Virus record (IMG/VR): IMGVR_UViG_3300005663_000053
Location: 1-55,616 of that record
Length of the DNA: 55,616 bases
Source of the DNA: a virus
Direction: 5' to 3' (one strand)
The first letter of the stretch is position 1; each line of letters opens with the position of its first letter. A model generated the notes under the pieces. The model saw nothing but the letters and a program-made list of their open reading frames with translations, ran no database searches and was not told the origin of the DNA. The position numbers and the translations under genes are program-made. Shown here piece after piece: positions 1 to 33,519 of the stretch.

Positions 1-77
1 CCTGTACGGATTCTCCTTTCTGGCTCTGGGTATGGTGTACCCTCGTGTCACGCTCTCCACCCTCCCTCGGCAAACGC
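1..77. repeat. Left copy of 77-bp terminal direct repeat
   Basis: Bases 1-77 are identical to 55540-55616. A short exact end overlap of this size is typical of a circular contig that was not trimmed. It is probably not a biological terminal repeat, because it lies inside one open reading frame that continues across the join. Confidence 0.95.
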
Positions 78-13997: not shown

Positions 13998-14008
13998 CCC
14001 TAAATCCC

Positions 14009-14530
14009 ATGGCCAAGAAGCGTGCGCCCAAGAAGCGCGCGGACAAAAAGCGCGGCCGGCCGACCCTCTATTCGGATGCCCTTGCAGCAACGATTTGCAA
14101 GCGGCTGGCGAAAGGCGATTCGCTGCGCCGCATATGCCAAACACCTGGCATGCCGCATGTCGACACTGTGATGGGGTGGTTGTTCGATACCCATCCCAAG
14201 GATGATCCGCGTACCGAATTTTCCTTACGGTACGCGCACGCGCGCAAGGCCCAGGCCGAGCTCTATGCGGACGACATCATAGAGATTGCCGACGACGAAA
14301 AAGACGATGACGTCGGCGACTTGGCGATGAGTTCGGCGCGGCTCGCCCGCCACCGTCTGCGCATCGACGCGCGCAAGTGGATCGTCTCCCGGCTCCTCCC
14401 GCGCTACGCCGATAAGATCGTCCATGAGGGCGGCGAGAAGCCGATCCCGATCAAGCTCGAGGGCCGCCAGCTCGCCCGTGGGATCGCGCTCATTTTGAAC
14501 CGGGCCGACCCGAAGAAAGGCAAGGAGTAA
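14009..14530 (+). CDS. terS: Terminase small subunit
   Basis: This 173-residue protein has a basic, Lys-rich N-terminus and GRPTLYSDALAATICKRLAK. A HTH-like segment follows (SLRRICQTPGMPHVDTVMGW), then the helical YAHARKAQAELYADDIIEIA. This is the pattern of phage terminase small subunits, which recognise the packaging site. The large subunit is 20 kb away at 34478, an unusual separation. The start is chosen at the first ATG after the previous stop. Confidence 0.85.
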   Translation: MAKKRAPKKRADKKRGRPTLYSDALAATICKRLAKGDSLRRICQTPGMPHVDTVMGWLFDTHPKDDPRTEFSLRYAHARKAQAELYADDIIEIADDEKDDDVGDLAMSSARLARHRLRIDARKWIVSRLLPRYADKIVHEGGEKPIPIKLEGRQLARGIALILNRADPKKGKE

Positions 14531-19333: not shown

Positions 19334-19572
19334 AGCCTTCATCGGCTGACATCGAACAGCGGGTGGCCCAAGCCCAAAAGGCAGCGGAGGCGCTTGATTT
19401 CGGTCACCAGGTTCGGGCCATGCTTCAACCACCCAAACCGATACGGTGGATAATGGATCGCCTTGATCGCCAGATCCCGATCTATCGGGACACACATCAC
19501 ATCGTGAAGGAAGAGGAACGCCAGCGGCGCCGGAAGCGGCGCGAAAAAGCGGGGCGCTACGTCTGGCCATGA
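19330..19572 (+). CDS. Small basic helical protein
   Basis: The protein has 80 residues. Its start overlaps the previous stop, and its stop overlaps the nucleotidyltransferase start (ATGA at 19569). The C-terminus is strongly basic (EERQRRRKRREKAGRYVWP). This gene ties the coiled-coil genes and the sugar island into one transcript. No family was recognised. Confidence 0.55.
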   Translation: MKPSSADIEQRVAQAQKAAEALDFGHQVRAMLQPPKPIRWIMDRLDRQIPIYRDTHHIVKEEERQRRRKRREKAGRYVWP

Positions 19573-20255
19573 CGCCTGTGATTCTCATGGCTGGTGGCCG
19601 AGGCTTGCGTCTCCATCCGCTCACCGAGAAACACCCCAAGTCCTTGTTGAAGGTCGGTGGCAAGCCGATCCTCGAGCAGATCATCGATGGGTTCGCGCGC
19701 CAAGGCTTCCGCCGCTTCTGGCTATGCGTCAACTACAAGGCGGACCTCATCAAGGATTACTTCGGCGACGGCGGGGTGCGAGGCCTCAAGATCAAGTACA
19801 TCCACGAGACGGAGCCATTGGGCACCGGCGGGGCGCTCAGGCTGCTTCCTGCCTTCGATGTGCCCTTCATTCTCTGCAACGCCGATGTGCTCGCCAAGAT
19901 CGAATACGGCGATCTCATGGAATACCACGCCCGGGCGAACGTCCAGGCGACGGTCTGCGCGGCTTTGTCCCAGCGCCAAGGCCCCTACGGCGTCCTCGAT
20001 GTCGAGCCAGCCCCAGGCTCCACCGCGATACGGTTGATCTCCCTGCGCGAAAAGCCGATCGAGGGCACGCTGGTCAACGCCGGCGTCTATGTGCTAGACC
20101 CGAAGGCGCTGGACCTAGCGCCCGAGGGACACTTCGACATGCCTGAGCTGATTGACCGGCTGGACCGGGTTGCGGCCTACCCGATCGAGGGATATTGGGT
20201 GGATGTCGGCAGCTTTATCGACTTGGCGATGGCGAACACAGAGTGGGCAGCGTGA
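19569..20255 (+). CDS. Sugar-1-phosphate nucleotidyltransferase (PtmE-like)
   Basis: This 228-residue protein begins VILMAGGRGLRLHPLTEKHP, the nucleotide-binding signature of the family. KSLLKVGGKPIL, the EPLGTGGALRLL segment, a CNADVL metal site and the closing GYWVDVGSFIDL follow. In Campylobacter, PtmE makes GDP-GlcNAc (from glucosamine-1-phosphate precursors) for legionaminic acid. This protein lacks the CBS-domain region seen in some PtmE proteins. The presence of LegB, C, G, H, I and F homologues downstream supports the same role, but the nucleotide used (GDP, UDP or another) is not visible in the sequence. Confidence 0.8.
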   Translation: MTPVILMAGGRGLRLHPLTEKHPKSLLKVGGKPILEQIIDGFARQGFRRFWLCVNYKADLIKDYFGDGGVRGLKIKYIHETEPLGTGGALRLLPAFDVPFILCNADVLAKIEYGDLMEYHARANVQATVCAALSQRQGPYGVLDVEPAPGSTAIRLISLREKPIEGTLVNAGVYVLDPKALDLAPEGHFDMPELIDRLDRVAAYPIEGYWVDVGSFIDLAMANTEWAA

Positions 20256-20259
20256 TCAT

Positions 20260-20355
20260 ATGAATCGCTTAATCAGCACCTTGACGTTGCCTATCTTGAC
20301 CGCTAGCGTGTTATACGCGCTTTACAAAATGGCTGAAAGCGCAGGCACGTTATGA
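20260..20355 (+). CDS. Very small membrane protein (31 residues)
   Basis: A 31-residue frame starts at ATG 20260 and ends with the TGA that overlaps the next start (ATGA 20352-20355). It is hydrophobic throughout (LISTLTLPILTASVLYALYK). The ATGA linkage shared with neighbouring genes supports translation. Function unknown. Confidence 0.4.
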   Translation: MNRLISTLTLPILTASVLYALYKMAESAGTL

Positions 20356-20672
20356 CCGTCTGGATTGTTCGCTTCATGCCTCTCGAAGGAACCGTGCCGA
20401 CCGATGGCCGGTTCCGCACCGAGGAAAGCGCCCGAAAGGTTTGGAATGAGGCTGGGGCGTGGGACACGGGCAAGGGCAAGTTCACCTTCAGGGACGATTT
20501 CGGCGCCGACATCAGGATTGATTTGAAGAAATGCCTTGAGGTTTTCACTGACACCGACAGTTCCGCAGCTTCCCAGTACGCGCTCAACGAGGCTAACCAC
20601 GAGGCGGCGCGCGCTCACAACCTTCCTCCACCCAGCAAGGGTAAGGTCCACCCGGGGTCGACGACGCATTGA
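20352..20672 (+). CDS. Unknown protein within the sugar island
   Basis: This 106-residue protein has strand-rich ends (WIVRFMPLEGTVPTDGRFRT, GKFTFRDDFGADIRIDLKKC) and a hydrophilic C-terminus. It resembles no known legionaminic pathway member. It overlaps the small upstream gene and the TTG-initiated CMP-sugar synthetase gene, so it is in the same operon. Confidence 0.5.
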   Translation: MTVWIVRFMPLEGTVPTDGRFRTEESARKVWNEAGAWDTGKGKFTFRDDFGADIRIDLKKCLEVFTDTDSSAASQYALNEANHEAARAHNLPPPSKGKVHPGSTTH

Positions 20673-21295
20673 ATGTCCTCGGCTTGATCCCGGCGCGCGG
20701 CGGCTCGCGGCGCGTTAAGGGGAAGAATCTGCGCTTGCTCGGCGGCCACCCGCTGATCGGCTGGACCATCGAAGCGGCCAAGATGACGCATAGCCTCGAC
20801 CGTCTGGTCGTCTCGTCCGAAGACCCGAAGATCCTCCAGGTGGCGCACGAATGCGGCGCCGAGGCGCTGGTGCGGCCAGCGGAGATGGCGACCGACGAGG
20901 CTTCCTCCTATCCGCTGATGCTCCACGCGCTCGACAGCCTCGATGAGCCGTTCGACTATCTGTGCTTGCTTCAGCCGACCTCGCCGTTCCGCCGGCCGAT
21001 CGACATCGACAACTGCATCGGTGCGGCGCGGCAAATGGACTTGGCGGCGGTGATTTCAGTCAGGGAGAAGGAAACCGCAGGCAATGGGGCGATCTATGTG
21101 GGCCGCACGGATTGGCTCCGCGATCGCCTGGCCGCCGGCGATGCCGCACCTTTCGATGGGCCGGCGCCGGAGTTCTATCCCATGGCGCGGGATTGCTCGC
21201 TCGACATCGATACCGAGGAGGATTTCGTCCGGGCCGAGGCGATGGCATCCTTCTTGATGTGGGATGACGCGCTGGGAGAGGACATGAGGAAATGA
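20669..21295 (+). CDS. CMP-nonulosonate (sialic/legionaminic acid) synthetase, LegF/NeuA-like
   Basis: This 208-residue protein starts LGLIPARGGSRRVKGKNLRL, the CTP-binding loop of CMP-acylneuraminate synthetases. QPTSPFRRPIDID in the middle and RDCSLDIDTEEDFVRAE at the end are the usual metal-binding segments. It activates a nonulosonic acid with CMP for transfer. The start is TTG 20669, overlapping the previous stop (TTGA). A weak start may tune its level. With the synthase LegI at 27779, it gives the last step of the pathway. Confidence 0.85.
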   Translation: MNVLGLIPARGGSRRVKGKNLRLLGGHPLIGWTIEAAKMTHSLDRLVVSSEDPKILQVAHECGAEALVRPAEMATDEASSYPLMLHALDSLDEPFDYLCLLQPTSPFRRPIDIDNCIGAARQMDLAAVISVREKETAGNGAIYVGRTDWLRDRLAAGDAAPFDGPAPEFYPMARDCSLDIDTEEDFVRAEAMASFLMWDDALGEDMRK

Positions 21296-22260
21296 ATCCC
21301 TTCCAGCCGCTCTACGACGCCTGCAACCAGGGCGACTCGGCGACCAAGTATGCGAACCTGCCGGAGTTTCCCACCCACATAGACGTCGAGCTCACCAGCG
21401 CGTGCAACTTCCGCTGCGTATTCTGTCCAACTGGACTCCACGGGCTCAATCGGGCAGCGGTCAACATGACGTCCGAGACATACGCCAATATCATCGCGCA
21501 GTGCTCCCCGCGCGGCACGCCGTTGCGCTTCATCGGGTGGGGAGAGCCATTGCTGCATCCCAAGGTGGTGGCTTTTGTCCAGATCGCTACCACGGAAGAA
21601 ATCGACACGCATATCAACACCAACGGGTCGAAGCTGAATGCGAGGATGGCCGCTGGACTGGTCCGGGCCGGACTCAAGTCGCTCAAATTCTCATTCCAAG
21701 GCGTTGATCGCGACTCCTTTGCCGAGGCGCGGCAGATCGACTTCTTCGAGGGCATGATCGAAGCCATTAAGACGCTGCGTGCAGCGCGGGGCGATCGGGA
21801 TGACCCCTACATCGCGGCATCGACATCGATCACTGGCGAAAGCCCGGAAATGGTGGAGGTGTTCCGGCGGCGCCTGGAACCGCTGGTAGACCAGCTTTCG
21901 GTGGGACGGACGATCTTTGACTTCCTCGATTCCCGAGCGGTGCGCGCGGCGACGCCGAAGCAGCGCGAGGCATTGGAGAAATTGAAGGCGGCTGATTCAG
22001 CTCCGAAGGTTCACCCCGCGCCCTGCCCGGAAGTTTATGACAAACTGTCCATCCATGCGGACGGCAGCGTGCGCATCTGCTGCAACGATTTCTCAGGCGT
22101 GACCAATTTAGGGAACGTCAACGAACACCGCATCGATGATATTTGGCGGCATGGCGTGATTGAACAGTATCGCAAACGGCTTGCGGCGAAGAAATATGAG
22201 GGCCCGCTTTGCTCCGTATGCTATGATTATCAAGGACTATCGCAGGGCGCGAAACAATGA
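21292..22260 (+). CDS. Radical SAM enzyme with C-terminal cysteine (SPASM-like) cluster
   Basis: This 322-residue protein has the radical SAM signature CNFRCVFC (Cys38, Cys42, Cys45) followed by a TIM-barrel pattern with FIGWGEPLLHPKV. Extra cysteines near the end (CPEVYDKL, RICCN, LCSVCYD) resemble a SPASM or twitch cluster. It would use a 5'-deoxyadenosyl radical, with the substrate unknown. Its place between LegF and the amidotransferase suggests a modification of the sugar or of an acceptor. It is linked to both neighbours by ATGA overlaps. Confidence 0.8.
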   Translation: MNPFQPLYDACNQGDSATKYANLPEFPTHIDVELTSACNFRCVFCPTGLHGLNRAAVNMTSETYANIIAQCSPRGTPLRFIGWGEPLLHPKVVAFVQIATTEEIDTHINTNGSKLNARMAAGLVRAGLKSLKFSFQGVDRDSFAEARQIDFFEGMIEAIKTLRAARGDRDDPYIAASTSITGESPEMVEVFRRRLEPLVDQLSVGRTIFDFLDSRAVRAATPKQREALEKLKAADSAPKVHPAPCPEVYDKLSIHADGSVRICCNDFSGVTNLGNVNEHRIDDIWRHGVIEQYRKRLAAKKYEGPLCSVCYDYQGLSQGAKQ

Positions 22261-22703
22261 CGTTCGCAGTCACTCAAACACCGGAGCAACGCTTCTTCGC
22301 GAAAATCCAGCCTGAGCCAAATTCCGGTTGCTGGCTTTGGGACGCAACGATTGCTCGCGGCGGTTATGGGCATTTCTGGGTCGAGGGACGGTTGGTCTAT
22401 GCTCATCGATTCTCCTATGAATTGGTGCATGGGCCGATTCCTCCAGGCGCAGCCTTGGATCATCTCTGTTCGGTGCCCTCATGCGTAAATCCAGATCATT
22501 TGGAAGCGGTGACGCCACAGGAAAACGCCCAGCGGACGGTGGACCGGGGCCGCTGGCATAATCGACACGCCGCCAAGACACATTGCCCTTATGGGCATCC
22601 TTACTCGGGCGATAATCTCTATTTCGAGAGCGGCTATCGCCGTTGCCGTGCATGTTCCCGCCGAAAAGCGGCAGACCAAAGGCGCAAGCGCAGGGCGGCA
22701 TGA
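22257..22703 (+). CDS. HNH homing-type endonuclease
   Basis: The 148-residue protein has GCWLWDATIARGGYGHFWVE and YAHRFSYELVHGPIPPG. The catalytic region is LDHLCSVPSCVNPDHLEAVT, then a CPYGHPYSGDNLY and CRACSRRKA zinc-binding tail, the usual architecture of phage HNH homing enzymes. It interrupts the sugar genes but is fitted in with ATGA overlaps at both ends, so it has not disrupted a gene. It is not expected to work in the sugar pathway. Confidence 0.85.
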   Translation: MTFAVTQTPEQRFFAKIQPEPNSGCWLWDATIARGGYGHFWVEGRLVYAHRFSYELVHGPIPPGAALDHLCSVPSCVNPDHLEAVTPQENAQRTVDRGRWHNRHAAKTHCPYGHPYSGDNLYFESGYRRCRACSRRKAADQRRKRRAA

Positions 22704-24046
22704 CTTTCCCGCCGCTGTGGTCCGCCGAGGTCGAGGCCCGGGTCCGCGCCGAGGCGCGCAATCTCGATAGCCAGGAAAGGCCCCAAGAAGTCCGTTTCTG
22801 TACGCGCTGCGTCGTCTCCAACCAGCGCCCGCGGATACGCTTCGACGACTACGGGGTTTGCTCTGCCTGCCAATACGCGGAGCGGAAGAAGTATGGCCGG
22901 AAGCACACCGATGGAAAACGGTGGGGGATCGACTGGGCGGCACGCGAGGCCGAACTCAAGGCGCTCCTCGACAAGCACCGACGGTCATCCGGATACGATG
23001 TGATCGTGCCCTGCTCGGGCGGCAAGGACTCGAGCATGATCGCGTACCGCTTGAAGCACGAATACGGGATGCACCCGCTGTGCGTTCGCTTCGCGCCGTT
23101 CATGGAAACGGAGATCGGGCGCAAGAATTGGGAGAGCCTTGGCGAGGAGTTTGATCGCCTGGACTTCGGCCCCGCAGGAAACCTGCACCGCAAGCTCGCC
23201 CGTCTCGCCTTCGAGTTCTACGGCGACCCGTTCCAGCCGTTCGTCTACGGCCAGCTCGCCTGGCCGATGTGGGCAGCCGTCGACCGCGACGTCGGCCTAG
23301 TGATGTACGGCGAGAATGGCGAGGCCGAGTATGGTGGTGACCCGGCAGCGAACGACAAGCCATGCTGGGATACCAAGGACTGGGATCGCGTCTACAGCAA
23401 GGGCGCGGGAATCGAGGCGCTATTAGCCGAAGGGGTACATATCGGCGCCATCATGGAAGAGGAGTCGCGCGCGGCCAGCGAGTTCTATCGGATGCCATCG
23501 TTGGACCCGGACGTTGAAGTTGTTCTGCGGCCAGGGACCGTCGCATACACTGACGTAGCCGCTCAATTCCACTGGTTCGGCTACTACCGCCGCTGGCACC
23601 CGCAGGAGAATTACTACTACGCCTCTGAGCACACCGGCTTTGAGGCGAACGAGGAGAGATCGGAGGGCACCTACTCCAAGTACGCCTCGCTCGACGACAA
23701 GCTCGACGGGTTCCATTACTTCATGGCGTTTGTGAAATTCGGGATCGGGCGGGCAACCTCCGACGCCGCCCATGAGGTAAGGGACGGCGACATCACGCGC
23801 GAGGAAGCGATCGCGCTGGTGAAGCGCTACGACGGTGAGTTCCCGGGGCGTCACTTGGACGAGTGCCTAGACTACTTGGGGATGGACCGACAGCAGCTTG
23901 AGCACGTCATTGACCGCTTTCGCGCCCCGCATGTTTGGGATTGTACCGGTATAGTGTCTGGCGCTGATGGCACTACAATTTTTCCTGTGAGCCGCATCTG
24001 GCAGCTCAAGCACGCCGTCTACGACAAGGAGACAGTGGCGGCGTGA
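22700..24046 (+). CDS. N-acetyl sugar amidotransferase (PtmG/PseA/WbpG-like)
   Basis: This 448-residue PP-loop ATPase-type enzyme has the motif CSGGKDS at 105-111 and a zinc-type CTRCV ... GVCSAC cluster (Cys34, 37, 54, 57). Later segments GENGEAEYGGDPAAN and FHYFMAFVKFGIGRATSDA match the N-acetyl sugar amidotransferase family. Family members convert an acetamido group to an acetamidino group in pseudaminic and legionaminic acid derivatives, usually with HisH and HisF partners supplying nitrogen. Here HisF is present and HisH is not. Confidence 0.85.
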   Translation: MTFPPLWSAEVEARVRAEARNLDSQERPQEVRFCTRCVVSNQRPRIRFDDYGVCSACQYAERKKYGRKHTDGKRWGIDWAAREAELKALLDKHRRSSGYDVIVPCSGGKDSSMIAYRLKHEYGMHPLCVRFAPFMETEIGRKNWESLGEEFDRLDFGPAGNLHRKLARLAFEFYGDPFQPFVYGQLAWPMWAAVDRDVGLVMYGENGEAEYGGDPAANDKPCWDTKDWDRVYSKGAGIEALLAEGVHIGAIMEEESRAASEFYRMPSLDPDVEVVLRPGTVAYTDVAAQFHWFGYYRRWHPQENYYYASEHTGFEANEERSEGTYSKYASLDDKLDGFHYFMAFVKFGIGRATSDAAHEVRDGDITREEAIALVKRYDGEFPGRHLDECLDYLGMDRQQLEHVIDRFRAPHVWDCTGIVSGADGTTIFPVSRIWQLKHAVYDKETVAA

Positions 24047-24198
24047 CTGGCAAGATCATACCCAATGAGGTTAGGACGATCGAGGATCTGGTGCGCTGGA
24101 TCATTGATATGGAGCGCGACGTTGTCGCGTTCCAAGAGGCCTACCTCGGGCGCAAGCGGGAACTGCCTTCCAAGAAATGCCCCTCGCCTTCCGGCTGA
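24043..24198 (+). CDS. Small protein between amidotransferase and HisF genes
   Basis: A 51-residue frame starts at GTG 24043, overlapping the amidotransferase stop (GTGA), and ends inside the HisF start (24177). It reads NEVRTIEDLVRWIIDMERDV and then RKRELPSKKCPSP. Support is the overlap pattern. The function is unknown. It is too short to be HisH. Confidence 0.45.
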   Translation: MTGKIIPNEVRTIEDLVRWIIDMERDVVAFQEAYLGRKRELPSKKCPSPSG

Positions 24199-24938
24199 TA
24201 GCGCGCCTCGACATCAAGGCTCCGAACCTGATCAAGACCGTGCGCCTCGAGGGCGTGCGGGTGGTCGGCGATCCGCAGGAATACGCCAAGCGCTATGACC
24301 AAGAAGGCATCGACGAGATCCTCTACATCGATGTCGTCGCCAGCCTCTACCAACGCAACAGTCTCGCCTCGCTTGTCGAGTGGACCAGCGAGCATGCCTT
24401 CGTTCCTGTTACTGTTGGCGGCGGCGTTCGATCGACCATTGATGCTCGCGCCCTTCTTAGGGCAGGGGCGGACAAGCTGGCACTCAATACAGCGGCGGTC
24501 GAGCGGCCCGGACTGATCACGGAAATCGCCGAGAAATTCGGCTCCTCAACGATAGCGGTGCAGATCGATGCGAAACGCAAAGCGTCATCGTGGGAAGCGT
24601 ACTCGGACGGCGGCCGGCAGCCGACCGGAAAAGACGTTGTCGTTTGGGCGCAGGATGCGGTTGAACAAGGCGCTGGCGAGGTTCTACTCACCTCTATCGA
24701 TCATGAAGGAACCGGACAAGGCTTCGATCTCGAGCTGATCCGCGCCGTCGCCGGGGCTGTGCCTGTTCCGGTCGTCGCCTCGGGCGGATTCGGTGAGTCC
24801 AGCCATGCCGTTTCCGCCGCCCTGGCGGGCGCATCAGGCGTCGCCATTGCCGGAGCACTCCACTATCGCCGGGTGCCTTTGAGCGCAATGAGGGAGGCAC
24901 TCAGCGCCGCAGACGTACCCGTGAGGAGAGCGGCATGA
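24177..24938 (+). CDS. HisF-like cyclase/ammonia-using subunit
   Basis: This 253-residue (beta/alpha)8 protein follows HisF, with Asp12 and Asp131 in the positions of the catalytic aspartates (RLDIK and VQIDAKR) and phosphate-binding glycines (VTVGGGVRSTIDA, VASGGFGESS). In nonulosonic acid clusters HisF-like proteins (with HisH) supply ammonia to the PtmG-type enzyme. No HisH glutaminase is seen here, so free ammonia or host HisH may serve. It overlaps LegB by ATGA. Confidence 0.85.
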   Translation: MPLAFRLIARLDIKAPNLIKTVRLEGVRVVGDPQEYAKRYDQEGIDEILYIDVVASLYQRNSLASLVEWTSEHAFVPVTVGGGVRSTIDARALLRAGADKLALNTAAVERPGLITEIAEKFGSSTIAVQIDAKRKASSWEAYSDGGRQPTGKDVVVWAQDAVEQGAGEVLLTSIDHEGTGQGFDLELIRAVAGAVPVPVVASGGFGESSHAVSAALAGASGVAIAGALHYRRVPLSAMREALSAADVPVRRAA

Positions 24939-25900
24939 CAAAAGCCTTCGTTACCGGCGCCGATGGCTTCATAGGCTCCCATCTCTGCGAGGCGCTGCGC
25001 GATCAAGGCGACGAGGTGACCGGCCTCGCCCTCTACAACAGCTTCGATTCCTTCGGCTGGCTCAATGAGGTGGAAGGAGTCGAGAAGGTCCGCGGCGATG
25101 TGCGCGATGCCGACCAGATGCGATATCTGATCGGCAACAGGTCGACCGACATCGTGTTCCATCTCGCAGCGCTGGTCTCGGTGCCATACAGTTTCGAGGC
25201 ACCGCAGAGCTTCATCGACACGAACGTCACGGGGACACTAAACGTGCTTCTGGCGGCGGGGCACATCGGCGCAAAAGTCATCCACACCTCGACCTCGGAG
25301 GTTTACGGCTCGGTCCCCGACAAGGCGATAAACGAGGACATGCCGCTCGCTCCGCAGTCTCCTTACGCGGCCTCCAAGGTGGCGGCGGATGCCCTTGTGC
25401 GCTCGTTCTACCGGAGCTACGGGCTGCCGGCGGTAATCCTGCGGCCGTTCAACACCTATGGCCCGCGGCAGTCGGAAAGAGCCGTGGTGGCGACCATCAT
25501 CCGCCAAGCACTCGACCCGGAATGCCGACGGATCGAACTCGGCAATCTCCATGCTACCCGCGACCTCACCTACGTTGACGATATGGTGAGGGCGTTCCTT
25601 GCCGTGGCCGGGATCAACGCGTATGGCGTCTACAACGCTGGCGGCGGCGTGATTATTAACGTCCGCGATCTCGGCGAGCTGATAAAGGCATTGACCGGGT
25701 GCGACAAGTCAATCCTCTCTGGGATGGCTGACCGCATACGGCCTGAGGCGAGCGAGGTGGTGGCCCTCAAGGCAGACGCGACACGATTGACCAAGCGCAC
25801 TGGCTGGAGGCCGAAAGTGCCGCCCGGCGAAGGGATGAAGCGCACCATCGACTGGTGGCGCTCTCGCCCGTTCCGCAAGGACCAGGTCTATCTGACGTGA
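24935..25900 (+). CDS. NDP-sugar 4,6-dehydratase (LegB-like, SDR family)
   Basis: This 321-residue extended short-chain dehydrogenase has FVTGADGFIGSH (NAD-binding GxxGxxG at residues 8-14). The active-site segment is STSEVYG at about 119-125. Tyr144 and Lys148 form YxxxK in SPYAASKVAADAL, followed by RPFNTYGPRQSERAV. It closely follows the GDP-GlcNAc 4,6-dehydratase LegB family, with an ALYNSFDSFGWL segment also typical of these. It makes the 4-keto intermediate for the aminotransferase. It overlaps HisF by ATGA and the aminotransferase by GTGA. Confidence 0.85.
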   Translation: MTKAFVTGADGFIGSHLCEALRDQGDEVTGLALYNSFDSFGWLNEVEGVEKVRGDVRDADQMRYLIGNRSTDIVFHLAALVSVPYSFEAPQSFIDTNVTGTLNVLLAAGHIGAKVIHTSTSEVYGSVPDKAINEDMPLAPQSPYAASKVAADALVRSFYRSYGLPAVILRPFNTYGPRQSERAVVATIIRQALDPECRRIELGNLHATRDLTYVDDMVRAFLAVAGINAYGVYNAGGGVIINVRDLGELIKALTGCDKSILSGMADRIRPEASEVVALKADATRLTKRTGWRPKVPPGEGMKRTIDWWRSRPFRKDQVYLT

Positions 25901-26826
25901 TCCCGCTCGCCGAGCCCAACTTGGCCGGCAACGAATCCAGATACGTCCGCCAGGCTATTGCCTCGGGCTGGATCTCCGGCGGCGGCCCGTTCGTCGAGCG
26001 CTTCGAGGAGATGGTGGCGAAGGCCTGCGGCCGGCGATGGTGCGTCGCCACCCTGACCGGAACTGACGCGATCCATCTCGCGCAAACCGCATGCGGTTTG
26101 CGGCGGGATATGCGCGTCGATATGCCCTCGATGGCCTACATCGGGGCGGCGAACGCCGTGAAGGCCGCGGGCGGCACAATCCACTTTCGCGACATCACCG
26201 ATGGCTGGACCTATGATCGGACGGTGCTGGGCGGGGTGGTCGATGCAGCCCCCGCCGTCGGGATCAGGCAAGAGGGCTTGGTTATCTGCCTCTCGTTCAA
26301 CGGCAACAAGACGATCACCACGGGCCAGGGCGGCGCCGTCCTCGGCAACGAGCTGGAGTTTGGCAGTCTTGTGCGCCATCTGGGGACAATGGCCAAGACG
26401 GGGCCATACGAGTACGACGCCGCTGGCTTCAACTACCCCATGACGAACCTCACTGCAGCCATGGGGTGCGCGCAGATGGAGCGGCTCAAGCCAGCCCTCT
26501 CTCGGAAGCGGGATATCTGGCGGCGCTACCGCGAGGCACTGCGACCAGCCTTTCCCGGCGTCCGATCACAGTCGTGCTGGATGGCGACCCTGCGGACGGA
26601 GAAGCGCGGCGCGATGCTCGCGCATCTTCGCAAGTTGGGTATCGACGCGCGGCCTTTCTGGACGCCGCTGCATATGCTGGCACCATATCGGAACTGCCAC
26701 CGCGATCCTCTGCCCATCACCGAGGCGATCTGGGACAAACTGGTCTGCCTGCCATGTTCGACCGGACTCACGGAAGGGGATCAGGACAAGGTGATAGCTG
26801 CATGCGCCGCATTCTTGTCGTCGTAA
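25897..26826 (+). CDS. PLP-dependent sugar aminotransferase (LegC-like, DegT family)
   Basis: This 309-residue protein starts IPLAEPNLAGNESRYVRQAI and has GTDAIHLA near residue 55. The Schiff-base lysine Lys138 sits in SFNGNKTITTGQGG, the variant common in LegC proteins. HLGTMAKTG and GFNYPMTNLTAAMG follow. It adds an amino group at C4 of the keto sugar. It is shorter than the usual 370-390 residues, with much of the segment between the substrate loop and the Lys missing. It may be compact but active. GTG 25897 overlaps the previous stop. Confidence 0.8.
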   Translation: MIPLAEPNLAGNESRYVRQAIASGWISGGGPFVERFEEMVAKACGRRWCVATLTGTDAIHLAQTACGLRRDMRVDMPSMAYIGAANAVKAAGGTIHFRDITDGWTYDRTVLGGVVDAAPAVGIRQEGLVICLSFNGNKTITTGQGGAVLGNELEFGSLVRHLGTMAKTGPYEYDAAGFNYPMTNLTAAMGCAQMERLKPALSRKRDIWRRYREALRPAFPGVRSQSCWMATLRTEKRGAMLAHLRKLGIDARPFWTPLHMLAPYRNCHRDPLPITEAIWDKLVCLPCSTGLTEGDQDKVIAACAAFLSS

Positions 26827-27791
26827 GCGGGCGGGCGGACGCGAGCCCTATGACTCCGGTCATCACCGCCCTTGCGGTGCGCGGTTTCTCGGTCCCGATC
26901 AGCGAGCCCGTCACCGGCGAGTACGCCCCGACCAACCCCGCCGTGCGCATGGCTGGGCAGCTTCGCTGGGTCACCCAAGACATCGAGGAGCACCTGCCCG
27001 ACATCGTGCTCTTGCTTGGGGACCGCTATGAGACGTTGGCCGCCGCCGCGGCCGCGACCTTGGCGCGGGTGCCCATCGCCCATATTCACGGCGGGGAGGC
27101 CTCCTTCGGCTCGTTCGACAATCAGATCCGGGACGCGGTCACGAAGCTCGCTCATATCCACCTTGTCGCGGCCGAGCCGTTTCGCGAGCGGCTGATGGCC
27201 ATTGGCGAGGATCCGGTGCACATCTACACGGTGGGGGCACCCGGGCTGGACAATTTCCCAAACCTGCCCAAACGCACCCTGGGAAAGTATTTCCTGGTCA
27301 CCTACCACCCGCCGACATTGGCCGAAACCGGCGGAATCAAGGCACTGCTCAAGGCGCTCGACTTTTTCCCAGATTACCGGGTGATCTGGACCGGCTCGAA
27401 CGCCGATCCGGGCGGCCAAGAGATCGAGAACGCGGTCATCGCCTGGGGCAAGGCCGATCGATGGACGTTCCTTGCCCTGGACGCCTATCTGAAACTCGCC
27501 CGCAACGCGGCGGCCATAATCGGCAATTCCTCGGCCGGCATCATCGAGGCGCCGGCGCTCGAGGTTCCCACGGTCAACGTCGGGCCACGCCAGGACGGAA
27601 GGCTTAAAGGGCCTTCGGTGATGGACTGCAGGGAACACCATGCTGAAATTGGGGCGGCGATACATCGGGCCTTGGCGTTTGTGGGCCCGTTCGACAATCC
27701 CTACGGCGGGCCTGGGGCCTCGGCCAAGATCGCGGACGTGCTGGCCGACATCGATCTCGACGGGATTCTGGTGAAGCGATGGTCTTCGTAA
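26802..27791 (+). CDS. NDP-sugar 2-epimerase/hydrolase (LegG/NeuC-like)
   Basis: This 329-residue GT-B-fold enzyme has ILVVVSGRADASPMTPVITA, LLGDRYETLAAA, AHIHGGEASFGSFDNQIRDA and, near the end, GNSSAGIIEAPALEVPTVNV with PRQDGRL. This is the pattern of UDP-GlcNAc 2-epimerase and hydrolysing NeuC/LegG/PseG-type epimerases. It releases the free 2-epimerised sugar used by the synthase. It begins 25 bp inside the aminotransferase gene and overlaps the synthase gene by 13 bp. Confidence 0.85.
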   Translation: MRRILVVVSGRADASPMTPVITALAVRGFSVPISEPVTGEYAPTNPAVRMAGQLRWVTQDIEEHLPDIVLLLGDRYETLAAAAAATLARVPIAHIHGGEASFGSFDNQIRDAVTKLAHIHLVAAEPFRERLMAIGEDPVHIYTVGAPGLDNFPNLPKRTLGKYFLVTYHPPTLAETGGIKALLKALDFFPDYRVIWTGSNADPGGQEIENAVIAWGKADRWTFLALDAYLKLARNAAAIIGNSSAGIIEAPALEVPTVNVGPRQDGRLKGPSVMDCREHHAEIGAAIHRALAFVGPFDNPYGGPGASAKIADVLADIDLDGILVKRWSS

Positions 27792-28585
27792 TTGCCGAGG
27801 CCGGCGTCAACCACAATGGCGACGTCGACATCGCGCACAAGCTGGTCGAGGCGGCTGCAAGCGCCGGCGCCGACGCGGTCAAGTTCCAGACCTTCGATGC
27901 GGAGAGATTGGATCCGCCGGGCGCGCGCCGGGAGATGCTGGCCAAGCTCCAGCTCTCGCACGAGGCGCATTTCGCCTTGAAGAAGCAGGCCATGGATCTC
28001 GGCATCGAGTTCATGTCCACGCCGTTCGACCTCGACTCCCTGCGTTTCCTGGTCGAAGATGTCATGGTCGGGACGCTTAAGATCGGCTCCGGCCAGCTCG
28101 ACAACGCCCCGCTGCTTGAGGCCGCACGAATGTCCCCATGCCACCTGATCGTCTCGACTGGCATGGCCACGATGGAGGACGTTGGGCGGGCGCGCGGGGA
28201 GCTCCGGCGCGGCATCATGCTGCACTGCACGAGCGCCTACCCGGCGCCGCCGGCTGACATCAACCTGCGGGCGATGGTAGCTATGCGCGAGAAGCTGGGC
28301 TGCCCCGTCGGGCTTTCCGACCACACCGACAGCACGGCCATCCCGATTGCGGCGGTGGCGCTCGGCGCCGAGGTCATCGAGAAGCACCTGACGCTTGATC
28401 CCTGGATGCGGGGCCCGGACCATGCGGCCTCGCTCGATCCCCATCGCTTTTCTGCGATGGTCACTGGCATCCGCAGTGTCGAACTAGCCCTGGGCGACGG
28501 GGTGAAGCGGCCCCAGGCGAGCGAGGCCGGGGCCATCGAGATCGCCGCCGAGCGGCGCGCTTGGAGGGAAAAGAATGCAAGTTGA
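27779..28585 (+). CDS. Nonulosonic acid synthase (LegI/NeuB-like), SAF domain missing
   Basis: The 268-residue barrel of NeuB is present: IAEAGVNHNGDVDIAHKLVE, KFQTFD, STPFD, KIGSGQLDNAPLLE, VSTGMAT, LHCTSAYPAPPADINL, GLSDHT and EKHLTL. It condenses a 6-deoxy amino hexose with phosphoenolpyruvate to make the nonulosonic acid. The C-terminal SAF (antifreeze-like) domain, about 60-70 residues in typical synthases and contributing to the active site in dimers, is absent. The frame ends after EIAAERRAWREKNAS, overlapping the next gene. Activity without SAF needs proof. Confidence 0.85.
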   Translation: MVFVIAEAGVNHNGDVDIAHKLVEAAASAGADAVKFQTFDAERLDPPGARREMLAKLQLSHEAHFALKKQAMDLGIEFMSTPFDLDSLRFLVEDVMVGTLKIGSGQLDNAPLLEAARMSPCHLIVSTGMATMEDVGRARGELRRGIMLHCTSAYPAPPADINLRAMVAMREKLGCPVGLSDHTDSTAIPIAAVALGAEVIEKHLTLDPWMRGPDHAASLDPHRFSAMVTGIRSVELALGDGVKRPQASEAGAIEIAAERRAWREKNAS

Positions 28586-28799
28586 CAGTGCAGACGCCAG
28601 ACCAGATCCACCGGAGGAGTGCGGCAGTTGCGGCCAGGAGGGTGTCGAACTCCATCGGACCTCTTCTTATGGTCCCGGCCATCAGGTCACATGGCATTGT
28701 GATTTCTGTTTTAACTTCATGGATCCCGGCAGCGCCCTCAGCCACAACCTCGCCAAAATGGGGCACATGCTGCTCAAGGCAATTCGCGATAGAGGGTAA
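28575..28799 (+). CDS. Small zinc-ribbon-like protein
   Basis: This 74-residue protein has two CxxC pairs (CGSCGQEG and CDFCFN) and two His residues near the end, giving a zinc-ribbon-like layout. It overlaps the synthase end by 11 bp and the acetyltransferase start by one base (TAATG). It could be an accessory to the pathway or an unrelated small phage protein. No family was recognised. Confidence 0.55.
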   Translation: MQVDSADARPDPPEECGSCGQEGVELHRTSSYGPGHQVTWHCDFCFNFMDPGSALSHNLAKMGHMLLKAIRDRG

Positions 28800-29344
28800 T
28801 GTCTCGCATCGTGATTCTCGGCACCGGCGGCCATGCGCGAACGCTACAGGCGCTTATGGGCTATCCGGCCGACTCCTGTATTTTGACTGATGATGACGAC
28901 GAAGTCCGACCTGATGATTCCGTTCTTATTGGTGTCGGCGACGTGGTGAAGCGCCGGTCGCTTTTTAAGAAATTCCGTTCGCAAGTGCAGGAGATGCGCG
29001 CATCTCGAACCTTCGTTCATACGTCGGTGAAAGTCGGGCGCGGCATCCAGATGATCATGGGCGCGATGATCATGCCAAATTGCCGAATCGGCGACAATGT
29101 GCTGATCAACACCGGTGCCCAGATCGACCACGACTGCAATATTTCGTCACATTGCGTCATCAGCCCCGGTGCGATCCTATGCGGCAACGTGACGCTCGGT
29201 GAGGCATGCTTTATCGGTGCCGGCGCGATCATCGTGCAAGAGGTGACCCTTGAACCCGAGACCTTCATTCCGGCGGGAACGCTCGTGGTAGGACCAGATG
29301 ATCTCCGCCATCCATTGCGGGATGTCGTCTTACCGTCGCAGTAG
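28799..29344 (+). CDS. Sugar N-acetyltransferase (LegH/PglD-like)
   Basis: This 181-residue protein has an N-terminal Rossmann-like part (IVILGTGGHARTLQALMGYP). A left-handed beta-helix of hexapeptide repeats follows (IMGAMIMPNCRIGDNVLINT, then ISPGAILCGNVTLGEACFIG), the layout of PglD/NeuD/LegH acetyltransferases. The likely His base lies in AQIDHDCNI. It would acetylate the amino group made by LegC using acetyl-CoA. The gene starts on the last base of the previous stop. Confidence 0.8.
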   Translation: MSRIVILGTGGHARTLQALMGYPADSCILTDDDDEVRPDDSVLIGVGDVVKRRSLFKKFRSQVQEMRASRTFVHTSVKVGRGIQMIMGAMIMPNCRIGDNVLINTGAQIDHDCNISSHCVISPGAILCGNVTLGEACFIGAGAIIVQEVTLEPETFIPAGTLVVGPDDLRHPLRDVVLPSQ

Positions 29345-29348
29345 ACCA

Positions 29349-30851
29349 ATGGACATCTGTCTCGTCATCCCGCCATCGACCTTTTTGATGGACGAGCGGG
29401 TATTCCCGAGCCTGGGCGTGTTGAAGATCGCCGCTGTCCTCGAGGCTGCGGGCAAGGATGTCGGCGTTCTGGATCTATCGGGGGTCGAGAACTATCTGGA
29501 CGCGCTCGATGTGTTCCTCGCCGGGTTCACTGGCCGCCACATCGGCATCACTGCGACGACGCCGCAGATGCCGGCCGCGCACCTGATCGCCAAGCGTATC
29601 CGGGAAGTTGCCACCGGTAAGCGCATTATCCTCGGCGGGCCCCACGTCACGCTGGTCCATGCGGCAGCGCGAAAGGAAAAGGAACGCTCGAAATACAGCC
29701 GGGGCAGAAGGGCTCTGGACCAACTCTGCGATCTCTATGAAGTGCTCTCGGTCGGTGATGGCGAGGCGGCGATCTTCGAGGCGATAGGGCCTTGCCGACC
29801 ACCCAAGATTATCGACGCCGACGATCGCAAAGGTCCGCTGTTCCAGACGCGGGACCAGTACGCAGCATCGCCGTTCCCCGCGCGCCACCTGATCGACCTG
29901 GACAGCTACTCCTATGAGATCGAGGGGCATCGGGCGACCAGCCTGATCTCCCAGTTGGGCTGCCCCTTCAACTGCGGCTTCTGCGGCGGCCGGAACTCCT
30001 CGATGCTCAGGGTGATCCGCACCCGACCCGTGGCCACGGTGATCGACGAGCTCACCGAAATCCATGAGGCCTATGGCTACACCGGCTTCATGTTCTACGA
30101 CGACGAGTTGAACGTGAACGAGGCCAGCTTCCTCGAGTTGCTGGATCGGCTCACAGCCCTGCAAGCGCGCCTCGGGACCGAGTTCCGCCTACGAGGCTTT
30201 ATCAAGGCGGAGCTATTCAACGAGGCCCAGGCACGCGCGATGTATGCGGCCGGGTTCCGGTGGCTGCTCTGCGGCTTCGAGGGCGCCGACGACCGGATCC
30301 TGACCAACATCAACAAGAGGGCGACGATCGAGGACAACACGGCTGTGATCAAGGTCGCGCACAAGCACGGCCTGAAGGTCAAGGCGTTGATGTCGATCGG
30401 GCACCCAGGCGAGTCCCGCGCCTCCGTGCTGGCGGTCCGCGACTGGCTGATCGCACAAGAGGCGGACGATTTCGACGTCACCATCATCACGCCCTATCCG
30501 GGCTCGCCTTACCATGACGAGGCGGTGGAGCAAGCCGACGGGTCGTTCACATACGTCCAGCCCGTGACCGGCGATCGCCTCCATATGCGGGAGGTCGACT
30601 ACAATGAGCACGCCGATTACTACAAGGGGATGCCCGGTGAGTACGTTTCGCTGGTCCATACCGACGGCCTGAGCGAAGCGGAGCTGGTGGCGTTGCGCGA
30701 CCAGGTGGAGGCCGAGGTGCGTGAAGCACTGGGGATTCCATTCAGCGCCGTCAACAGGGCCACCAAGTACGAGCACTCGATGGGACAGGGCTTGTCAGAT
30801 CATCTGTTGCGGTCTACTCCAGAGGAATGGGCGCGATCTCAAACCGCCTGA
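29349..30851 (+). CDS. B12-binding radical SAM enzyme
   Basis: This 500-residue protein has a cobalamin-binding-like domain in residues 1-170 (DICLVIPPSTFLMDERVFPS, GITATTPQMPAAHLIAKRI, ILGGPHVTLV). A radical SAM domain follows with LGCPFNCGFCGG (Cys205, 209, 212) and a barrel with GFMFYDDELNVNE and GFEGADDRILTNINK. Members of this superfamily methylate, epimerise or rearrange unreactive carbons. Its substrate is not known. Position in the sugar operon suggests it modifies a sugar or a glycan carrier. ATG 29349 follows the acetyltransferase stop by four bases. Confidence 0.8.
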   Translation: MDICLVIPPSTFLMDERVFPSLGVLKIAAVLEAAGKDVGVLDLSGVENYLDALDVFLAGFTGRHIGITATTPQMPAAHLIAKRIREVATGKRIILGGPHVTLVHAAARKEKERSKYSRGRRALDQLCDLYEVLSVGDGEAAIFEAIGPCRPPKIIDADDRKGPLFQTRDQYAASPFPARHLIDLDSYSYEIEGHRATSLISQLGCPFNCGFCGGRNSSMLRVIRTRPVATVIDELTEIHEAYGYTGFMFYDDELNVNEASFLELLDRLTALQARLGTEFRLRGFIKAELFNEAQARAMYAAGFRWLLCGFEGADDRILTNINKRATIEDNTAVIKVAHKHGLKVKALMSIGHPGESRASVLAVRDWLIAQEADDFDVTIITPYPGSPYHDEAVEQADGSFTYVQPVTGDRLHMREVDYNEHADYYKGMPGEYVSLVHTDGLSEAELVALRDQVEAEVREALGIPFSAVNRATKYEHSMGQGLSDHLLRSTPEEWARSQTA

Positions 30852-31732
30852 TCTCAGGCACCTGGGCCGCATGGTACGCGGCGACCGAGCCGGTGAGACT
30901 TCGATGGGCCCGCCAGAAGCATGGGGGTGACTATGATGGCCTCAACGATCCGCGGTTTCATGCGCCGCAGAAAAACGCAGACGGTTCATTCACGATCTAC
31001 GGAAGTTCGGACCCGCCGATCAATCCACTGGTCACGGTCTACATCCCGACGCACAACCGGGTCGATCTGTTGATGGAGCGCGCCCTGCCGAGCGTGCTGG
31101 CCCAGACCTATCGCAATATTGAGATTATCGTCGCGGCGCACGGGTGTACTGACGGGACGGCAAGTCGCGTTTGCGGACTCGGCAGACCTAAAACATGTGT
31201 GCTCGGCGTACCGCGCCGGCGCACCTACCCGCCCACGGTAGAGAACCACTGGTTCGCAAAAGAGGTAGCCCCGGCAAATGCCGCTTTGCGGGCGGCGGGC
31301 GGCGCATGGATCGCCCGCCTTGATGACGACGACATCTGGACCCCGGATCACGTCGAGAAGCTGCTGCGCTTCGCCCAGAAAGGCGACTTCGAGTTCGTCT
31401 CAGCGGCCTATGAGCGGGAGCGCGATGGTGTTCGCGAGGTCGTGCCCCATTTTGGATCGGACATAATCGAAGCCCCGTACATCGGCGGTCACCAGACCTG
31501 GCTATATCGCTCGTACCTTCGGTTCATGCGGTACAATCAGGAATGCTGGCGGAAGCGATGGAACCGGGTCAACGACACCGATCTCGCTGATCGATTCTGG
31601 AAAGCGGGCGTGCGCATTGGCTGGCTCGATGAAGTCCTGGCCTACGTTATTCCACGGCCAGGCGAAACGACGGTAGGTTTGGAGGCCTACCGCCGTAACG
31701 CGGTGAACATTGAGCGCGAACTAGCGTTCTGA
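30827..31732 (+). CDS. Family 2 glycosyltransferase
   Basis: This 301-residue protein has the GT-A core PLVTVYIPTHNRVDLLMERA, IEIIVAAHGCTDGT and the metal-binding DDDD in WIARLDDDDIWTP. A C-terminal acceptor region contains several Trp residues. It would transfer a sugar from a nucleotide donor, not necessarily a CMP-nonulosonate, since GT2 enzymes usually use UDP or GDP sugars. It overlaps the radical SAM gene by 25 bp and is the last gene of the sugar island. A minus-strand gene faces it. Confidence 0.8.
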   Translation: MGAISNRLISGTWAAWYAATEPVRLRWARQKHGGDYDGLNDPRFHAPQKNADGSFTIYGSSDPPINPLVTVYIPTHNRVDLLMERALPSVLAQTYRNIEIIVAAHGCTDGTASRVCGLGRPKTCVLGVPRRRTYPPTVENHWFAKEVAPANAALRAAGGAWIARLDDDDIWTPDHVEKLLRFAQKGDFEFVSAAYERERDGVREVVPHFGSDIIEAPYIGGHQTWLYRSYLRFMRYNQECWRKRWNRVNDTDLADRFWKAGVRIGWLDEVLAYVIPRPGETTVGLEAYRRNAVNIERELAF

Positions 31733-32001: not shown

Positions 32002-32076
32002 GTGGGATCTCCCTAGAGTTAAAGTGATCGCACCCTAACCAGCCTGGGCCGCCGGCACAACGGCCCATCTCAGCAG

Positions 32077-32102
32077 CCGTCCCGCTTGGGGCGGTTTTTC
32101 TT
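32077..32102 (+). terminator. Rho-independent terminator
   Basis: CCGTCCC / GGGGCGG pair around a four-base loop (one G-U pair), followed by TTTTTCTT. It would stop rightward transcription from the sugar island before the gene at 32134. Confidence 0.7.
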
Positions 32103-32133: not shown

Positions 32134-32649
32134 ATGACCTTCAATCCTGTTCAGCAAACGTCCATCCATGGGCGCCGGCTCGGTCTTGGCAGCACGGGTG
32201 CCATCCTGCAAGGGAGCAGCGACGGCACAAAATACGCGGCCCTCATCAGAAGCACGGCCGATATGCTTCAAAACTCGACCGCTCTGTTGGCTTCACAGTG
32301 GGGCCTCAACGCACAGAGCGTGGTGCCAAGTTCCGTAGGCTCGACGCTCACGAACTACGGCCTTGAGAGCCTGTCGTCGGCCTCGGCGACATTGGTCACC
32401 GGCCATCAGCTCGGAACTCCGGTCGTTGGCGTCATCAAGACGATCCACCTCGATTGCAGTGGTTCGGAGATCATCTTCGGCGGCACTTCGACCGCCATGG
32501 TGTTCCGGCCCGCGATCGCGGGTGCCGGCTCGAGCTTGTCCATTGTTCAGCTCCCCTTGGCGGGCACCGTGATCACCCTCATGGGATTCGCCTCCAGCGA
32601 ATGGACGTTGATCTCGGTTGGTTCGTCAGCAGCAGTCGTCATCGGGTAG
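32134..32649 (+). CDS. Fibre or decoration-like protein with duplicated C-terminal domain
   Basis: This 171-residue beta-rich protein is closely related over its last 105 or so residues to the end of the putative fibre at 52948-53649. Shared runs are SSVGSTLTN, FGGTSTA and ITL.G, and both end in VVxIG. The first 60 residues are unrelated to that fibre. A good ribosome site (AAGGAGAA) precedes ATG 32134. It probably forms part of a tail appendage or capsid decoration. It lies between the sugar island and the two GT42-like genes. Confidence 0.6.
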   Translation: MTFNPVQQTSIHGRRLGLGSTGAILQGSSDGTKYAALIRSTADMLQNSTALLASQWGLNAQSVVPSSVGSTLTNYGLESLSSASATLVTGHQLGTPVVGVIKTIHLDCSGSEIIFGGTSTAMVFRPAIAGAGSSLSIVQLPLAGTVITLMGFASSEWTLISVGSSAAVVIG

Positions 32650-32655
32650 GTGCCA

Positions 32656-33519
32656 ATGGCAGTAAAAAAGATCGCCATCATCGGGACGAGTCCGTCCTGC
32701 AAAAAGGCACCTTATGGTGACCGTTCGTGGGAAATCTGGAGCTTTAACCGGACATGCTTCGATCTCAAGCGGTGGGATCGACTCTTCGAGATACACCAAA
32801 AATGGGATTATGAACCCGACCCCAAGGCGTATCTCGACCGTCTCAAGAAGGTGAAGCCGCCCAAGAAAGTCATGTCGATCATCCCACTTGGCGGACCAGC
32901 GAACATCGTGATCGACCGCGAGGCGCTGTTCAAGAAATACGGCGCAATCTGGATTTCCTCGTCCATCACCTATGCAATCGCTTGTGCCCTAGAAGAGAAG
33001 CCCACCGACATCGGCCTATGGGGCATCGACATGGAGTCCCGCGAGGAATACGTGGTGCAGTTCGCGGGGTGCCGGCATTTCATCGACATGGCGAAGGTCT
33101 TGGGCATCAAAATCCATCTGCCCCATGATTGCCTTCTTCGCCGGGATCCCCACCCCTATGCGGACCGCTTCGAGACGACCCTCGCGCTGACCCTCGAAAG
33201 CAAGGCGAAATATATTGAGAAGCTGATCGATAGGGTCGAATGCCAGCTCAGTGCAGCCGAGGCGGGAATGAACCAGCGGTTGGGCCGCATCCGGGAAATG
33301 TATCTGCACGCTGATCTCCCGTATGAGGACGTCGATAAGCAAGAAGCCAAGGCCGCCGAGGACAAGTGGTACGTCGAAAAGCTGACGGCCTCCCTCAACC
33401 GCCTTCGGGGCGAACTCATAGCCACCCAGCACTACAAGCGCCTCTTCGTCTGGAACGTGCTTCCGCCGGAATTTGGCGAGGAGACTACGACGGACATCGA
33501 AGATTGCGGTCCAATCTGA
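32656..33519 (+). CDS. Putative transferase, tandem paralogue 1 (GT42/DUF115-like core)
   Basis: This 287-residue protein starts KKIAIIGTSPSCKKAPYGDR, a Rossmann-type loop. A central segment ISSSITYAIACALEEKPTDI is followed by GLWGIDM. Spacing and residues resemble the GNGPSL and TSGVYMCAVAIALGYKEIYL / SGID motifs of GT42 sialyltransferases and Maf/DUF115 proteins. A helical C-terminal part follows. It overlaps its paralogue at 33519. Similar proteins are widespread in phages without known function. The assignment as transferase is by eye only. In this genome a nonulosonic acid donor is available. Confidence 0.5.
   Translation: MAVKKIAIIGTSPSCKKAPYGDRSWEIWSFNRTCFDLKRWDRLFEIHQKWDYEPDPKAYLDRLKKVKPPKKVMSIIPLGGPANIVIDREALFKKYGAIWISSSITYAIACALEEKPTDIGLWGIDMESREEYVVQFAGCRHFIDMAKVLGIKIHLPHDCLLRRDPHPYADRFETTLALTLESKAKYIEKLIDRVECQLSAAEAGMNQRLGRIREMYLHADLPYEDVDKQEAKAAEDKWYVEKLTASLNRLRGELIATQHYKRLFVWNVLPPEFGEETTTDIEDCGPI

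Follow-up and report, generated by a model that had tools for sequence, protein, structure and literature searches.

A temperate podovirus carrying a near-complete nonulosonic acid pathway beside candidate virion glycosylation genes

Can a bacteriophage synthesize a sialic-acid-like sugar with its own enzymes and, if so, on which surface would the sugar be placed? The question is raised by the IMG/VR virus record IMGVR_UViG_3300005663_000053, analyzed here over its full length of 55,616 bp (the window), in which an island of sugar genes is found between the two terminase genes of a podovirus. Nonulosonic acids occur on the surfaces of bacteria, archaea and animals, and cellular pathways for legionaminic acid (Leg), phage virion glycosylation and single phage genes that modify nonulosonates have been described already. 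An earlier note on this DNA had proposed a near-complete legionaminic-type pathway, which is borne out by profile matches, by retained catalytic residues and by recurrence in at least 12 related viral contigs. The most informative part lies outside the stretch described in that note, namely in two Maf/GT42-like genes starting at 32650 and 33516 and in a Ser/Thr-rich gene at 32134. The favored explanation is that the phage makes a sugar of the cytidine monophosphate (CMP)-legionaminic type and O-glycosylates its own virion, to which we assign a probability of roughly 0.58. The island comprises the following open reading frames (ORFs), with profile E-values or scores in parentheses; SAM denotes S-adenosylmethionine.

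19569..20255, + strand: PtmE/LegX-like sugar-1-phosphate nucleotidyltransferase (NTP_transferase PF00483, 1.5e-29)
20669..21295, + strand: CMP-nonulosonate synthetase, LegF/NeuA-like, TTG start (CTP_transf_3 PF02348, 2.9e-21)
21292..22260, + strand: radical SAM/SPASM enzyme (PF04055, PF13186)
22257..22703, + strand: HNH-type endonuclease-like ORF (homologues at a similar place in related contigs L016, L086, L012 and L085)
22700..24046, + strand: WbuX/PseA/PtmG-type N-acetyl sugar amidotransferase, acetamidino group (TIGR03573, 289 bits, cut-off 203)
24177..24938, + strand: WbuZ/HisF-like partner of the amidotransferase (TIGR03572, 249 bits)
24935..25900, + strand: LegB-type NAD-dependent 4,6-dehydratase (TIGR04180, 1.9e-98)
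25897..26826, + strand: LegC-type pyridoxal phosphate (PLP) aminotransferase (TIGR04181, 2.2e-68 in two stretches)
26802..27791, + strand: LegG/NeuC-type hydrolyzing 2-epimerase, compact (TIGR03568, 8.4e-76, above the curated cut-off)
27779..28585, + strand: LegI/NeuB-type nonulosonate synthase without SAF domain (TIGR03569, 1.7e-92, 310 bits)
28575..28799, + strand: 74-aa ORF with paired CxxC motifs in its translation, overlapping NeuB and NeuD
28799..29344, + strand: LegH/NeuD/PglD-type sugar N-acetyltransferase (TIGR03570, 4.8e-37; Protein Data Bank (PDB) matches PerB/PglD)
29349..30851, + strand: B12-binding radical SAM enzyme, AprD4/BchE-like (PF04055 and PF02310)
30827..31732, + strand: GT2 glycosyltransferase (PF00535, 8.6e-18; in nearly every related island)

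The seven enzymes that had been named are present as ORFs at the claimed starts and belong to the expected families by profile, as do the amidotransferase at 22700, the HisF-like protein at 24177, the two radical SAM enzymes (21292 and 29349) and the GT2 at 30827. All six Leg steps are encoded together, covering the 4,6-dehydratase, aminotransferase, acetyltransferase, hydrolyzing 2-epimerase, synthase and CMP-transferase. The barrel of the synthase keeps its metal, phosphoenolpyruvate and Lys residues (E, N, H, K, K, S, H, H, D), and it scores 310 bits as NeuB-type against 193 bits as PseI-type. LegB keeps the [TS]SE and YxxxK residues; LegC keeps the PLP Asp and the Schiff-base Lys, with about 45-60 fewer internal residues than its cellular relatives. 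The best PDB match of the 2-epimerase is 5xvs, a GDP/UDP-diNAcBac (diacetylbacillosamine) 2-epimerase, at 6.5e-51, and the nearest chains to the CMP synthetase are CMP-Neu5Ac synthetases (best 6ifd, 3.4e-21), Kdo enzymes following at 7e-6 or weaker. In the amidotransferase, the SGGKD loop and four Cys are conserved in 11 relatives, and in the radical SAM enzyme at 21292 the CxxxCxxC and SPASM cysteines are invariant across 10 relatives. A defence-system reading of the latter was set aside, the PADLOC matches to pVip being generic radical SAM matches. The E-values and the conservation among related viruses exclude chance matches, and biosynthesis of an activated sialic-acid-like sugar by the predicted phage enzymes is well supported.

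Of legionaminic, pseudaminic and neuraminic acid, the first agrees best with this set. Among the curated NCBIfam cut-offs, those for NeuC and WbuX are passed; LegB (329 against 475 bits), LegC (231 against 420), NeuB (310 against 400) and NeuD (128 against 161) fall below, partly because the phage proteins are shorter. Since several enzymes lie under their cut-offs, the exact sugar was not recorded as Leg, and neither it nor the choice between GDP and UDP linkage can be decided from sequence; B. subtilis uses UDP-linked precursors (PMC7439481). A search with PF00117 found no HisH-type glutaminase for the amidotransferase in the phage genome, and host HisH or free ammonia would therefore be needed. 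The steps before the nucleotidyltransferase are likewise not phage-encoded and would come from the host. No SAF (antifreeze-like) domain was found in the whole genome, although cellular relatives and phage PseI have it. Separate encoding of SAF between 28585 and 28799 was ruled out, since that interval holds the 74-aa CxxC ORF. The nucleotidyltransferase also lacks the N-terminal CBS domain, a cellular relative beside NeuB being a CBS plus NTP_transferase protein of 360 aa.

With respect to layout, the genes had been described as translationally coupled. Overlaps of 4-47 bases are found at 10 of the 13 junctions; true gaps exist at two, where 96 bp precede 20352 and 130 bp precede 24177. The apparent gap before 28799 is occupied by the 74-aa ORF, which overlaps both flanking genes. 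The HNH-like ORF is probably a mobile element. The B12-binding radical SAM enzyme at 29349 occurs in the island of this phage only, being absent from all related islands, and may carry out a tailoring step on sugar or lipid that only this phage has. Downstream of the island, the following features lead to the large terminase gene.

32075..32096, + strand: terminator-like hairpin with T-tract, after the biosynthesis genes and before the Dec-Maf-TerL cassette
32134..32649, + strand: "Dec", Ser/Thr-rich (25%) protein with a gp9/gp10-like virion-adaptor beta domain, from fold and neighborhood
32650..33519, + strand: Maf/GT42-like transferase candidate, first copy, 43% identical to 33516
33516..34478, + strand: Maf/GT42-like transferase candidate, second copy, with an AlphaFold2 model whose fold matches
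34478..36067, + strand: large terminase subunit, TerL, on which the conserved cassette is anchored

Neither Maf-like protein has a Pfam, PHROG or PADLOC match. The Maf model PF01973 found nothing in 16 records at E <= 10 nor in the 14 aligned family members, while it does match in 9 control genomes; a search of the Maf-like proteins with PF06002 also gave nothing, as did its control. When the 14-member profile was compared with PDB sequences, GT42 sialyltransferases ranked first, at weak E-values of 0.14-0.26. In the predicted structure of 33516 (predicted local distance difference test score, pLDDT, 83.8), residues 25-213 align with the Maf flagellin glycosyltransferase 5mu5 at Z 10.4 over 151 residues with a root-mean-square deviation of 2.9, and with GT42 enzymes at Z 9.1-9.8 over 157-168 residues (Cst-I/II 9.1-9.7); the best PDB match by Foldseek is CstII, at E 3e-3. 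The central Cst-II-like fold of Maf is therefore predicted for 33516. PDB matches to residues 218-320 were long-helix look-alikes and were ignored. Within the Maf-like family, the D of GID and the Y of EEY are invariant; E68, H70, D174 and Y181 are among the invariant positions.

Independent support comes from genomic context. In a survey seeded by TerL alone, in which contigs with at least 6 kb of upstream sequence were counted, a Maf-like gene and nonulosonate genes occurred together in 11 contigs, neither occurred in 22 and one alone in none (Fisher 5e-9), and with contigs known from earlier scans removed the count was 6 against 22 (2.7e-6), values that overstate independence because the contigs are related. 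Dec lies directly upstream of the Maf-like gene in all 29 Maf-positive TerL loci, and 47 of the 51 Maf-negative loci lack it, the other 4 having only a weak, longer match. In distant virus families, 13 of 40 Maf-like contigs of at least 10 kb show nonulosonate genes nearby.

The top structural matches of the C-terminal beta domain of Dec (residues 58-165) are phage virion proteins, namely a Klebsiella phage baseplate protein (9f4a, Z 11.5), the CBA120 tailspike TSP4 (7rfo, 10.7), T4 gp9 (1qex, 9.1) and T4 gp10 (5iv5, 8.6). A beta-sandwich adaptor fold of the T4 gp9/gp10 type is accordingly predicted, from a model with pLDDT 72.8 overall. A second protein shares this domain.

52948..53649, + strand: virion structural protein, C-terminal part a Dec domain, the most Ser/Thr-rich of 40 measured (26%)

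Ser and Thr make up 25-26% of Dec and 52948, the two highest shares among those 40 phage proteins (median 9.7%). Maf enzymes use CMP-nonulosonates to O-glycosylate surface Ser/Thr and have a central domain similar to CstII (PMC11339370); Dec is for this reason a natural candidate acceptor. The recurrence within a virus family of the island, the Maf-like gene and a Ser/Thr-rich virion protein suggests that the particles are self-decorated.

From these families we infer the following activities and order of steps. During infection, a CMP-activated nonulosonic acid would be made by the phage. The nucleotidyltransferase at 19569 would charge host glucosamine-1-phosphate with a nucleotide, LegB would dehydrate the product, LegC would then aminate C4 and NeuD/LegH would subsequently acetylate it. 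NeuC/LegG would take off the nucleotide with 2-epimerization, NeuB/LegI would condense the product with phosphoenolpyruvate and the CMP synthetase would activate the result. WbuX and WbuZ probably convert an N-acetyl group to an acetamidino group, and the radical SAM enzymes may tailor the sugar further. Finally, 32650 and/or 33516 would transfer the sugar onto Ser/Thr residues in a virion protein, the most likely acceptors being the adjacent Dec and the paralogous domain in 52948, and the outcome would be a particle with a sialic-acid-like coat.

Several points weigh against virion glycosylation. All of the evidence for it is computational. By sequence, 32650 and 33516 match neither PF01973 nor PF06002, and the general-base His and the Arg of GT42 are not clearly conserved in the Maf-like family. 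The same fold is found in MptE-like HPPK (8sd5, Z 9.5) and in SteA (Z 8.5), and since these match at similar or slightly lower Z, fold alone is no proof of function. In 27 of the 40 distant Maf-like contigs (among L113-L171), no nonulosonate gene is present within the fetched DNA, and four relatives (L083, L085, L093 and L096) have no NeuB on the contig despite WbuX and GT2. The hairpin at 32075-32096 may part the biosynthesis genes from the late cassette, and host modification is possible because the phage is temperate.

The last consideration leads to the main rival, lysogenic conversion, in which the GT2 and/or the Maf-like proteins would place the nonulosonate on host lipopolysaccharide, capsule or flagellin, blocking superinfection or altering the host surface. 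A tyrosine integrase is present, a GT2 occurs in nearly every island, and the hairpin could set the biosynthesis genes apart as a unit of their own, although terminator-like sites are no more numerous in that region than expected by chance. Precedents for prophage genes acting on host nonulosonates are epaA/epaB (PMC12053666) and phage O-acetyltransferases (PMC6586298). On the other hand, the island lies between TerS and TerL on the late-gene strand and not beside the integrase, genes for an O-unit polymerase, flippase or acceptor sugar were not found, and the constant neighbor of the Maf-like gene is a virion-fold protein rather than a membrane protein. Lysogenic conversion is considered unlikely on balance, though a serious candidate.

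It may also be supposed that the pathway works but that 32650 and 33516 are not transferases, being instead MptE-like or other Rossmann enzymes, with the GT2 or host enzymes attaching the sugar to an unnamed acceptor. The shared fold of HPPK and SteA, the missing Pfam match and the poorly conserved catalytic His agree with this supposition. The longest and best domain alignments (151-168 residues), however, come from Maf and GT42 enzymes, and the co-occurrence with nonulosonate genes is perfect among TerL relatives, including a lineage with a different synthase, which makes it rather improbable. Ordinary O-antigen dideoxysugar genes, host contamination or decaying cargo are scarcely credible: LegB, LegC and NeuD are related to dTDP/GDP-dideoxysugar enzymes and the proteins are shorter than cellular ones, but NeuB, NeuC and the CMP synthetase are nonulosonate enzymes, the same complete circle appears in two assemblies with an island common to relatives, which rejects a chimera or host fragment, and reading frames stay open and catalytic residues persist in viruses that are 35-65% identical and have the shortening in common.

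Scans of IMG/VR place the whole or partial island of the related viral contigs nearly always immediately upstream of TerL (L002 and L082 are one contig). The fullest gene order runs nucleotidyltransferase, CMP synthetase, radical SAM, (HNH), WbuX, WbuZ, LegB, LegC, NeuC, NeuB, NeuD, GT2, Dec, Maf-like gene, TerL and portal. The island proteins of relatives are mostly 35-65% identical, with open frames. In a quick tree, the podovirus NeuBs form a single virus-specific clade with an SH-aLRT support of 98 (11 sequences including the fragment L014), indicating an old viral gene set rather than a recent capture. Within this clade, Asp/Glu is lost in most members (Q, D, G, A, H, N, C) at the position which we take to be equivalent to E134 of meningococcal NeuB, and substrate recognition may differ. 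Median lengths, from ORFs counted from the first start codon, are smaller in viruses than in alphaproteobacteria for NeuB (272 against 351), NeuC (327 against 396), LegC (333 against 396), the nucleotidyltransferase (223 against 360) and NeuD (175 against 209), and as part of the shortening NeuB has lost its SAF domain and the nucleotidyltransferase its CBS domain. A plausible source of the island is seen in alphaproteobacterial clusters such as L283, whose gene content is nearly identical.

The same Dec-Maf-TerL cassette is found in a second lineage (L182, L185 and others), there with a PseI-type pseudaminic acid synthase, which exceeds its curated cut-off, lies elsewhere in the NeuB tree and was acquired separately. 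The four relatives without NeuB keep WbuX, GT2 and the Maf-like gene, usually also the nucleotidyltransferase and CMP synthetase, and may use host sugar or another CMP sugar. A wider reading gives even odds to a widespread virus-specific system, in which temperate podoviruses with streamlined enzymes would place a CMP-legionaminic/pseudaminic-type sugar on a Ser/Thr-rich adaptor through a new Maf/GT42-fold transferase family, the synthase being swapped between lineages and the Dec-transferase-terminase cassette kept. The statement that phages carry at most isolated sugar genes understated the case, as relatives of NeuB are encoded on 263 viral contigs. These belong to many virus lineages, and phage nonulosonate synthases look widespread and mostly unstudied. 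Annotated phage records hold a NeuB relative in 3 only, at 30-34% identity, one of which, a Moritella viscosa contig, is plainly bacterial capsule DNA.

In comparison with known systems, the CMP-Leg pathway of Campylobacter jejuni (LegB, C, H, G, I, F, PtmE and PtmG-type) uses the same enzyme families, including the nucleotidyltransferase and the amidotransferase. The phage set differs in being viral and shortened (NeuB without SAF, nucleotidyltransferase without CBS, shorter LegC and NeuC), in lacking the early steps (GlmS/PtmF-type and mutase) and in its added radical SAM and HisF-like genes. Alphaproteobacterial clusters such as L283 group LegB, LegC, NeuD, NeuB, NeuC, WbuX, WbuZ and CMP synthetase as the phage does; their enzymes are full-length, and the radical SAM, GT2 and Maf-like genes of the phage-type island are absent from the six clusters read. 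The phage Maf-like proteins resemble Maf/GT42 enzymes in the predicted fold of residues 25-213, in a Maf-like helical C-terminal part and in the genomic link to CMP-nonulosonate synthesis, and differ in the lack of a sequence family match and of clearly kept GT42 catalytic residues. The neighbor of the phage gene is a phage virion-like protein and not flagellin. In mycobacteriophages (Che8 and relatives; cited in PMC11256854), phage-encoded glycosyltransferases modify virion proteins, as proposed here; the transferase family is another one, and the dedicated de novo pathway for a nine-carbon acidic sugar distinguishes the present phage. The Acinetobacter prophage genes epaA/epaB and atr (PMC12053666, PMC6586298) also act on nonulosonates, but modify a host-made capsule sugar without full synthesis.

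In the open-access literature searched, no report was found of a full phage nonulosonate pathway, of nonulosonate on virions, or of de novo synthesis by a virus linked with a virion protein and a new family of transferases. If the favored explanation is true, a bacterial virus that makes nonulosonic acid from scratch for its own particle would have a coat of a kind new among viruses, which might influence adsorption, competition between phages, evasion of defences and stability. A testable virion acceptor is proposed, together with a functional hypothesis for an orphan gene family that directly precedes the terminase gene in dozens of viral contigs, and compact nonulosonate enzymes become available for chemoenzymatic work.

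Regarding the virus itself, the ends of the window (1-77 and 55540-55616) are identical over 77 bp, an assembly overlap. The same phage was assembled independently as DRFF01000121.1 (55,684 bp), with identical ends of 145 bp and a break point elsewhere; since both close the same circle, the genome is complete and circular at 55,539 bp. That contig is public and belongs to a metagenome-assembled genome binned as Aurantimonas coralicida HyVt-316, a weak lead to the host. Further landmarks of the genome are as follows.

1870-2937, - strand: tyrosine integrase
13925..14530, + strand: small terminase TerS, Sf6-type (PF20901, 3e-32)
from 36815: portal
from 41448: major head protein
from 43389 and from 44208: tail tube proteins

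PHROG and Pfam matches identify the portal, major capsid protein, tail tubes A and B and TerL of a podovirus, and TerL is about 40% related to those of Acidovorax phage AP1 and Bordetella phage BPP-1; the phage thus falls among podoviruses related to BPP-1. It also encodes an ERF recombinase and is a temperate podovirus. TerS adjoins TerL in BPP-1 and AP1, while in this phage the two are about 20 kb apart, with the sugar island in between. Other genes were observed in passing. A short C5-cytosine DNA methyltransferase (248 aa; 3420-4166, - strand), of which Pfam matches a 53-residue stretch only, lies near the integrase, and a DUF5131/phrog_2045 protein is strongly matched at 11554-12696 (E 8e-97). 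A third radical SAM-like protein is encoded at 39910-40794, after the portal gene and before that of the major head protein, and its counterparts in relatives share 57-67% identity with it.

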